DNA of 64,000 nt, taken from assembly GCF_004168625.1 (NCBI RefSeq), contig NZ_SDWW01000003.1:62001-126000 (forward strand), read 5' to 3'. Positions 43,462 through 45,721 of this stretch are shown piece after piece; within the stretch, counting starts at the first letter, position 1, and every line of letters starts with the position of its first letter. A program made the translations under genes and the position numbers. The DNA is from Pengzhenrongella frigida. Lineage in GTDB: Bacteria; Actinomycetota; Actinomycetes; Actinomycetales; Cellulomonadaceae. The notes beneath the pieces were generated by a model that made no database searches, was not told the DNA's origin, and was given only the letters and a program-made list of their open reading frames with translations.

Positions 43462-44028
43462 ATGCAACTTTCCGACCTCCAGAGCCGTGTTCGTATCGCC
43501 TTGACGACGACGATCGTCAACGAGTGGTCCCTGCTCAGCGGGGCCGGGGGCACGAGTCGACCGAGCGAGCGGGCCGTGGCGTTCCATCTGGGCTGGTACC
43601 TGCGTCCGATGGTCGAGGAGTCGTGGGACATCGACTGCGAGTACAACCGGTCCGGCATGTACCTCGAGGAGTCCGTGCGGCTCGTCGACGACGAGGGTCG
43701 GCGCATCCCGGACCTGATCGTCCACCACCGGGGCAAGCTGGGGCCGGAGCACAACCTGCTGCTGCTCGAGCTCGCGACCGACCGTGCGGACCTGGACCGG
43801 GAGGCGACCGGCGACTTCGGGCGGGCACGCGCGCTGCAGGCCCGCTTCGGGTACCAGTTCGCGGCGGTGCTCGACCTTCGGCTCGGTGCCCGTGGCGCCG
43901 AGCAGGCCGTGGCGCCGCACTGGCAGTGGTCGGCGCTCGACGGCGGCCCGGTCGACGCCGGGGACGTCTACGAGAAGGACGTGCTGGCGGAGATCGTCGA
44001 GCGCGCGGGGGAGCGCCCGCGCCGCTGA
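43462..44028 (+). CDS. PD-(D/E)XK-nuclease-like protein, unknown function
   Basis: 188 residues, soluble. WDIDCEYNR (55-63), PDLIVHHRG (83-91) and LLLLELATD (99-107) follow the order of a restriction-endonuclease-like core, D-x(n)-E-x-K, seen in hypothetical proteins reading PDIIVHRRG...NLLVIEIKK (recollection). Here the catalytic Lys position is Ala105, so activity is doubtful. TAAAGT six bases before the ATG and the lack of a ribosome site suggest a leaderless transcript. It is transcribed toward the ANTAR genes. The gap 44029-44119 contains a GCTC run. Confidence 0.6.
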   Translation: MQLSDLQSRVRIALTTTIVNEWSLLSGAGGTSRPSERAVAFHLGWYLRPMVEESWDIDCEYNRSGMYLEESVRLVDDEGRRIPDLIVHHRGKLGPEHNLLLLELATDRADLDREATGDFGRARALQARFGYQFAAVLDLRLGARGAEQAVAPHWQWSALDGGPVDAGDVYEKDVLAEIVERAGERPRR

Positions 44029-44119
44029 GCTCGCTCGCTCGCTTTCTTTGCGTGCTCGCGGGTGGGACAGTCGGGGGGTCGGGGGTCATCCGAGCGCGTC
44101 AACCGGTGACGCGTCGTTT

Positions 44120-44156
44120 CCGGTGCACGCGGAACGCGGGCTCGAACCCTGGAAAC
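44120..44156 (+). promoter_or_regulatory. Conserved 37-bp leader element of the first GAF-ANTAR gene
   Basis: Differs from 44903-44939 at one base. It holds GGGCTCGAACCC (44138-44149), which can fold as a three-pair stem with hexaloop CUCGAA, and an upstream TTCCG/CGGAA stem. It ends 11 bases before the GTG start, as does the second copy before its ATG. Confidence 0.6.
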
Positions 44157-44167
44157 GCTGGCGAACC

Positions 44168-44815
44168 GTGCCGTGCCTCGACTCGATCGACCTTTCCCCC
44201 GGATCAACCGGGCCCGCTCGTCCCGAGCTGGCCGAGCTGGTGCTGGCCGCGGACGACCTCAGTGATCTTCTGCAGCGACTGGCCACCGCGGCGGTGCACC
44301 ACGTGGATGGCGCGGCCTCGGCCGTCATCACCGTCACCCGCGACGGTCGACCGACGACTCGGTCGGGGCTCGAGCAGGCCGCTGGAGCCCGTCGCAGCGG
44401 GCGTCTCTCGGTGCCCTTGAGCGACCTCGACCGCGCCACCGGTTCGGTCACCCTGTACCCGCGACTCCTGGCCGGTTTCGGTCCGGTCGAACGAGGCCAG
44501 GCGCAGCGGTTCGCGGACGAGTCGTCTCGGGTGCTGTCCCTGGCGCTGCGACTGGCGCGGGGCAATGAGGTCACCGATCAGCTCAGCGCAGAGCTCGCGT
44601 CGCGGACCGTGATCGACCACGCGCTGGGGATCGTCATGGGACAGAACCGGTGCGATGCCAACGTGGCATTTGCGATCCTTCGAGCAGCCTCCCAGAACCG
44701 GCACGTACGCCTGCGCGTCGTCGCGGCGGAGATCGCGTCGACCGTGAGCCGCCGGCCGCCGGCCGCCGGCCGCGGAGTGCGGCTCGACGCCCGACTGGGT
44801 TCGAGCGGGAGCTGA
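44168..44815 (+). CDS. GAF-ANTAR regulator 1
   Basis: Predicted RNA-binding antiterminator: an N-terminal GAF-like sensor half and a C-terminal ANTAR helical domain, 215 residues. ANTAR core ELASRTVIDHALGIVMGQ then FAILRAASQNRHVRLRVVAAEI (about 135-185). The GAF part is shorter than in the second copy, with much of the central sensor missing (GARRSGRLSVPLSDLDRATG). I placed the start at the GTG 44168 because it lies at the same distance from the conserved leader as the ATG of the neighbour and aligns without gaps to it; a GTG at 44123 inside the leader is in frame too. Confidence 0.82.
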   Translation: MPCLDSIDLSPGSTGPARPELAELVLAADDLSDLLQRLATAAVHHVDGAASAVITVTRDGRPTTRSGLEQAAGARRSGRLSVPLSDLDRATGSVTLYPRLLAGFGPVERGQAQRFADESSRVLSLALRLARGNEVTDQLSAELASRTVIDHALGIVMGQNRCDANVAFAILRAASQNRHVRLRVVAAEIASTVSRRPPAAGRGVRLDARLGSSGS

Positions 44816-44902
44816 CCCGAATGGTCTGTTCGTCCTGACTTCGGTGTCACCATGGAAGGAGCCGGAGGCATCTCGCGTGCGTCAGGACTCGGCGCGCCGT
44901 CC

Positions 44903-44939
44903 CCGGTGAACGCGGAACGCGGGCTCGAACCCTGGAAAC
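44903..44939 (+). promoter_or_regulatory. Conserved 37-bp leader element of the second GAF-ANTAR gene
   Basis: One mismatch to 44120-44156 (A for C at the seventh base). It ends 11 bases before the ATG at 44951. The hexaloop hairpin GGG-CUCGAA-CCC is kept; the upstream stem is reduced to three pairs. Confidence 0.6.
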
Positions 44940-44950
44940 CTCGGCCACCC

Positions 44951-45721
44951 ATGTCCGACAACATCCCGATCGCCCAGCCCGCAGGTGCATCGAGGCACGC
45001 CGCCGGCGAGCTGCAAGACCTCGTTCTGGCCTCCGACAACGTCGAGGGCTTCCTGCAACGGCTCGTGGAGATCGCCGTCGCGTTCCTCGGCGGCGACATC
45101 TCGGCCGGTGTCACGGTCTCCCGCTACGGTCACCCGGTCACGGTCGCCAGCAGCGACCGGTACGCCAGCCAGTTCGACGAGGCGCAGTACGGCCACAACG
45201 AGGGTCCCTGCCTGACGGCGATGCGCAGCGGCAACGTCGTCCTGATCGATGACCTCGCCAGCGACGAACGGTTCAGCCAGTACCGACCTCGTGCGCTCGC
45301 CTTGGGGGTCCGGTCGTCCCTGTCGATGCCGCTGGACGGCGGGGACCACGCCATCGGCGCCCTGAACCTGTACTCCGGAAAGCCGCACGCCTTCGGCCCC
45401 ACCGAGCAGGGTGAGGCGAAACGCTTCGCCGATGAGGCGTCGCGGGCGCTGAATCTCGCGGTGCGCTTCGCCCAGAACGTCGAGATCACCGACCAGCTCC
45501 GTGCCGCGCTGACGTCGCGGACGGTGATCGACCAGGGGATCGGCATCATCATGGGGCAGAACCGCTGCGACGCCGACGCGGCGTTCGAGATCCTCCGCAC
45601 GGCCTCCCAGAACCGCAACATCAAGCTGCGCACGGTCGCCGCCGAGATCGTCACCGCCGTCGGGCACAAGCCACCCCTCGGTGGGCATCCGTTCAACGAC
45701 GGGTCGCCGCTGGTCCGGTGA
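44951..45721 (+). CDS. GAF-ANTAR regulator 2
   Basis: 256 residues with a complete GAF domain (about 25-165; DEAQYGHNEGPCLTAMRSGN, VRSSLSMPLDGG, GALNLYSGKPHAF) and an ANTAR domain (about 180-235; RTVIDQGIGIIMGQNRCDADAAFEILRTASQNRNIKLR). GAF domains bind small ligands or sense redox; ANTAR domains bind paired RNA hairpins to prevent termination. It is paralogous to the preceding gene. The ATG at 44951 is preferred; ATG 44852 would include the leader in the coding region. Next downstream is an ABC exporter whose leader holds tandem hairpin repeats. Confidence 0.88.
   Translation: MSDNIPIAQPAGASRHAAGELQDLVLASDNVEGFLQRLVEIAVAFLGGDISAGVTVSRYGHPVTVASSDRYASQFDEAQYGHNEGPCLTAMRSGNVVLIDDLASDERFSQYRPRALALGVRSSLSMPLDGGDHAIGALNLYSGKPHAFGPTEQGEAKRFADEASRALNLAVRFAQNVEITDQLRAALTSRTVIDQGIGIIMGQNRCDADAAFEILRTASQNRNIKLRTVAAEIVTAVGHKPPLGGHPFNDGSPLVR

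Follow-up and report, generated by a model that had tools for sequence, protein, structure and literature searches.

Two tandem genes for ANTAR-domain regulators in Pengzhenrongella frigida are each preceded by nearly the same 37 bases. What is this shared leader, and on what does selection act there? The window, the whole 64,000-nucleotide stretch of contig NZ_SDWW01000003.1 that was analyzed, carries both genes on the forward strand. Gene 1 (44168-44815, start GTG) encodes a 215-aa ANTAR protein with a shortened GAF domain, and gene 2 (44951-45721, start ATG) a full GAF-ANTAR protein of 256 aa. A preliminary description of the locus had noted that the two proteins diverged, as indeed they have: more than 40 GAF residues are missing from gene 1, in which Pfam detects the ANTAR domain alone. 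With its ANTAR domain retained and its GAF domain truncated, the product of gene 1 may have lost its signal input. Just upstream of gene 1 stands a 188-aa ORF (43462-44028) with no Pfam match. Two further paralogues in the genome, on contigs C100 (L072 1061-1789) and C49 (L007 1-153), have an unusual and weak ANTAR domain (GIIMSQRLCDADAAMAILSADSL).

Among the genomes searched, the near-identical 37 bases are confined to the tandem pair

The two copies of the 37-mer, at 44120-44156 and 44903-44939 on the forward strand, are identical at 36/37 positions and end 11 bases 5' of GTG 44168 and ATG 44951, respectively, just as the preliminary description had it. Identity in the surrounding sequence is 55-67% (36/66 upstream, 31/46 in the part that forms the hairpin described below and 38/63 over the first coding bases). 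At 60% identity, the chance of at least 36 matches in 37 is about 2e-7, which places the 37-mer far above background. A third copy with up to three mismatches was found neither in the organism's own genome (4.3 Mb, 126 contigs) nor in 98 relatives. The corresponding stretch of the copies in C100, C69 (both contigs of the same genome) and G004 (a congener) matches the second window copy at only 26-28/37 positions; constraint on the 37-mer is therefore moderate, and we rejected it as the conserved unit in favor of a 47-nt hairpin just upstream.

Recent gene conversion, homogenizing a short stretch of the tandem pair, probably produced the 36/37 identity. The low identity of the other copies and the lack of recurrence among the relatives both speak for such an event, and it is compatible with the explanation that we prefer for the leader as a whole. 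What it leaves unexplained is the hairpin itself, whose copies have diverged yet kept their pairing. The preliminary description had reasoned that failure to recur would point to gene conversion, and this holds for the identity of the 37-mer but not for the leader.

A bulged hairpin upstream of the repeat is conserved as RNA

The 47-nt hairpin, which we call hairpin A, lies at 44078-44124 and 44861-44907 on the forward strand and overlaps the 37-mer by 5 nt; in copy 1 these five bases are the 3' end of its basal stem, P1. Its structure was obtained with RNAalifold from 16 leaders aligned by sequence alone, and consists of an 8-bp P1, a 5-nt pyrimidine-rich bulge in the 5' strand, a 2-bp step, a single bulged nucleotide, a 7-bp P2 and a variable loop. 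In copy 1, the arms of P1 are 44078-44085 and 44117-44124, followed inward by the 5-nt bulge (44086-44090), the 2-bp step (44091-44092/44115-44116), the 1-nt bulge (44093), the P2 arms (44094-44100 and 44108-44114) and the loop (44101-44107). The same elements of copy 2 are found at 44861-44868 and 44900-44907 (P1), 44869-44873 (5-nt bulge), 44874-44875/44898-44899 (2-bp step), 44876 (1-nt bulge), 44877-44883 and 44891-44897 (P2) and 44884-44890 (loop). A covariance model, R3, trained on GAF-ANTAR leaders and one STAS leader (L121), matches copy 1 at 44078-44127 with 49.7 bits and copy 2 at 44861-44910 with 57.2 bits, both copies being members of the training set.

The most conserved letters of hairpin A (a G.U pair, the bulge itself, a C-G and a G-C pair) flank the 5-nt bulge, which is conserved, whereas the loop varies in both length and sequence. 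Because these letters surround the bulge, a protein or other ligand would probably contact hairpin A there and not at the loop. Two further hairpins were noted in this region. One, with a GUYYCC hexaloop, can be drawn at 44115-44126 and 44898-44909, where it shares bases with the 3' end of hairpin A and might form at the expense of P1. The other, TCGGAG-GCA-CTCCGA, would form locally at the 5' end; it was rejected since covariation is absent.

Covariance modeling had been proposed in the preliminary description, and covariation was found. In the alignment of 16 leaders, 91.1% of cells are paired and 11 of 17 pairs have changed on both sides. None of 500 shuffles reached the observed values, controls in which the partner was slid along the sequence gave 38-57% pairing, and P1 alone also passes the test. 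A separate Streptomyces set is 95.7% paired, its members having been chosen with R3; neither this alignment nor that of the 16 leaders was fitted to the model. Two additional tests used an alignment biased towards the structure, since it had been fitted to the model. In the first, a tree-aware null in which substitutions were re-dealt among columns, the 15 testable pairs taken together gave a set-level z of 6.5 (0/1000), and none of the single base pairs was significant. In the second, 128 G-U cells were counted versus 16 A-C cells, which assigns the RNA to the strand of the gene. Judged by folding energy, most Streptomyces members beat shuffled sequence; several to many GAF-ANTAR members, including both window copies, fold no better than shuffled sequence, and the minimum-energy fold of window copy 1 differs from hairpin A. 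Conserved pairing on the sense strand, backed by covariation, is what a structured, cis-acting mRNA leader would show.

The leader probably begins just behind a promoter-like block

A -10-like hexamer, GACAGT (44066-44071, forward strand), precedes hairpin A of gene 1 by 12 nt and is a putative promoter element; its counterpart at copy 2 (CACCAT, 44848-44853) is a weaker one. Across members, [TG]AnnnT precedes the element by 12 or 13 nt in 30 of 36, compared to 1.0 expected from shuffles. The stricter TAnnnT is present at this distance in 19/20 Streptomyces members, and [TG]AnnnT in 10/15 GAF-ANTAR members. Since the -10 box directly precedes the element, the mRNA should begin with hairpin A, the transcription start lying at or next to the first base of the hairpin. 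Streptomyces members (e.g. L254, L266 and L281, upstream of position 1501 in each) have a promoter-like block, GGAGTAgnGTGAA, with no obvious -35 box, and this block is common to the upstream regions of both Streptomyces gene families described below.

The distance from the start of hairpin A to the start codon is 90 nt in both window copies and 89-104 nt across members. A second hairpin region of variable sequence, hairpin B, stands before the ribosome-binding region. It is well formed and long in Streptomyces members (CCGGG...CCCGG), where it lies 5' of the Shine-Dalgarno sequence. The window leaders have in its place a weak candidate, GGG-CUCGAA-CCC (44138-44149 and 44921-44932, forward strand), which had been put forward in the preliminary description; it can be drawn from the sequence, but the minimum-energy fold predicted for the window leaders does not contain it, and it is not conserved. 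A small CCG/CGG stem proposed alongside it is not kept in relatives.

Hairpin A precedes several kinds of genes in Actinobacteria

A search of relatives, also suggested at the outset, showed that the leader hairpin recurs before ANTAR genes in other genera. The close homologues in C100 and G004 (59-66% protein identity) have a homologous leader of ~90 nt that reaches well upstream of the 37-mer. This upstream block recurs before GAF-ANTAR genes of Pseudonocardia humida (L077) and two Pseudonocardiales MAGs (L080, L084), and is also present in further genomes of that order (L166, L167, L172, L173, L180, L183, L195). Matches to the covariance model precede GAF-ANTAR genes in Cellulomonadaceae and in Pseudonocardia and its order; for Cellulomonas carbonis, L047 and L091 are the same sequence. 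Another copy in the P. frigida genome lies at the end of contig C69, at an assembly break; since the first bases of contig C49 fall within an ANTAR gene, this leader and this gene probably belong together.

R3 matches were rare over samples of 299, 395, 148 and 111 genomes, and the strongest precede GAF-ANTAR genes. Most GAF-ANTAR genes in the genomes scanned are without the element, as are three plasmid GAF-ANTAR genes. Weak matches inside coding genes (among L118-L143, L242-L246, L251, L252, L256-L260, L263 and L276) were set aside by context as chance. Six other GAF-ANTAR leaders (L209, L215, L222, L223, L229, L232) have a different conserved block, GTGCGTCA.ACAGCGGCGTGC ... CCGAGGTCGCCA.CCCGGTG.

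The element also precedes one STAS gene (L121, the same place as L249). In Streptomyces, nearly all matches stand before genes for DUF5994 proteins (PF19457) or for an unnamed family with the motif RPLSRWQIEDR, the exceptions being a match inside a gene (L276) and one before a different unknown gene (L275). Streptomyces members were selected with R3, except for plasmid ones: five plasmid genes of these two families, from Streptomyces sp. NBC_00289, S. mirabilis, sp. NBC_01483, sp. BHT-5-2 and S. chartreusis, were picked by protein similarity alone, and 5/5 have the element at the same place. The leader of a Mycobacterium branderi DUF5994 gene (L292 546-597) scores only 12 bits; its arms, ATCGGTG and CGCTGAT, pair by eye, and the start codon follows at the distance seen elsewhere. 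NCBIfam and PDB sequence searches gave no match for the unnamed Streptomyces family. One Streptomyces cluster (L283 2406-10670) contains three DUF5994 genes together with genes for DUF5990, a cold-shock protein, a STAS protein and a PAS-GAF-SpoIIE phosphatase, and two genes of this cluster carry the element.

Alternative readings of the leader

The canonical target of ANTAR proteins is a pair of hexaloop hairpins with A at loop position 1 and G at position 4 (PMC8164766; PMC8934654). The preliminary description had proposed such a target here, while observing correctly that its candidate loop has C at position 1 and G at position 4. A1/G4 hexaloops occur in 3 of 35 leaders versus 8.7 expected by shuffling, and the dual motif in 0/35. 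Being rarer than chance and never paired, they led us to reject a canonical ANTAR target RNA, and the same element precedes non-ANTAR genes. What survives of the earlier proposal is a cis RNA before ANTAR genes that recurs and covaries, without the ANTAR hexaloop and without the 37-mer as its unit.

A non-canonical ANTAR target, acting in cis for autoregulation of the GAF-ANTAR genes and in trans on the STAS and DUF5994 genes, is doubtful. The strongest matches do precede GAF-ANTAR genes, the pair of hairpin regions, joined by a linker close to the ribosome-binding site, is reminiscent of ANTAR targets (PMC8164766), the apical loop is 6 nt long in many Streptomyces members, and one hexaloop is enough for EutV (PMC8934654). 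Against this stand the depletion of A1/G4 hexaloops, the conservation of the bulge while the loop varies, the presence of the Streptomyces element on other genes and its absence from most ANTAR genes. Known ANTAR-target RNAs, of the eut type in Firmicutes and Proteobacteria and of the actinobacterial set (Mehta and Ramesh 2021, PMC8164766), resemble the element in being structured leaders near a start codon, in accompanying ANTAR genes and in having two hairpin regions with a linker. They differ from it in their paired A1/G4 hexaloops, where the element has a long bulged stem and a variable loop, and the element is also found before STAS, DUF5994 and unnamed genes.

We consider it unlikely that the leader itself senses a small molecule or temperature, as a riboswitch or thermosensor would. 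Its position at the 5' end would suit a sensor, as would a local alternative, the hairpin CGCC-GUYYCC-GGUG, which some members have and which would be a competitor of P1, and stress-type genes such as that for the cold-shock protein lie nearby in one Streptomyces cluster. However, one simple hairpin offers little room for the pocket of most riboswitches, the genes that follow it are of the signaling type with no obvious common metabolite, and the alternative hairpin is missing from some members.

The conserved promoter-like block directly 5' of the element might instead suggest an operator or promoter part acting as DNA, but this is very improbable: G-U pairs exceed A-C 8 to 1, and the arms change together with pairing kept, which a DNA site does not need. 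Finally, an in-frame conserved leader peptide, the alternative offered in the preliminary description, can be dismissed: both copies have the open frame PV.AERGLEPWK, but the G004 orthologue has an in-frame stop, C100 is in another frame, the distance to the start codon ranges from 89 to 104 so that frame is not kept, and a -10 box stands directly in front of the leader.

Discussion

By computation, the element has a conserved structure, a strand, a position and a set of genes that it precedes. We are fairly confident that gene 1 and gene 2 share a structured mRNA leader in which hairpin A is a cis site acting at the RNA level, its pairing being under selection. Under this explanation, transcription would start at or beside the 5' end of hairpin A. 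Downstream would come a short linker, then region B with its variable hairpin close to the ribosome-binding site and, 89-104 nt into the transcript, the start codon. Selection on RNA pairing would maintain hairpin A, a protein or other ligand would read it via the bulge and thereby tune translation or stability of the mRNA, and gene conversion between the tandem copies would homogenize the adjoining 37-mer stretch.

Stem-loops at the 5' end of bacterial mRNAs can affect stability, and hairpin A, expected at the very 5' end of its transcript, resembles this general class; its conserved bulge and flanking letters point to specific recognition beyond the role of a protective stem. Rfam 15 covariance models gave chance-level matches only, away from the element, over the window stretch and the loci of seven other members. 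The element is like the actinobacterial cis-regulatory motifs in Rfam (e.g. msiK and mraW, PMC2864571) in being a structured 5' leader recognized by comparative genomics, with a function not known at first description, but it matches no Rfam 15 family above chance where searched. Given that the same fold precedes several kinds of genes and has no Rfam match in the loci searched, the bulged hairpin is probably a new RNA control element of Actinobacteria. Our literature search found no paper pairing DUF5994 with Streptomyces and none joining a conserved RNA motif with STAS and ANTAR; neither ANTAR nor STAS is named in the papers on RNA discovery that were searched.

In Actinobacteria, where few cis-regulatory RNAs are understood, GAF-ANTAR and DUF5994 proteins occur frequently and are themselves poorly understood. 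Through the common leader, GAF-ANTAR, DUF5994, STAS and unnamed genes may form a regulon. Tentatively, one RNA-binding factor may control all of them through the 5'-terminal bulged hairpin as a previously undescribed actinobacterial RNA regulon, and this factor could be an ANTAR protein that recognizes the bulge and not A1/G4 hexaloops. What these ANTAR genes carry differs from the hexaloop that current searches seek, which corrects the search image, and in Streptomyces, which is genetically tractable, the element is an RNA target open to direct tests.
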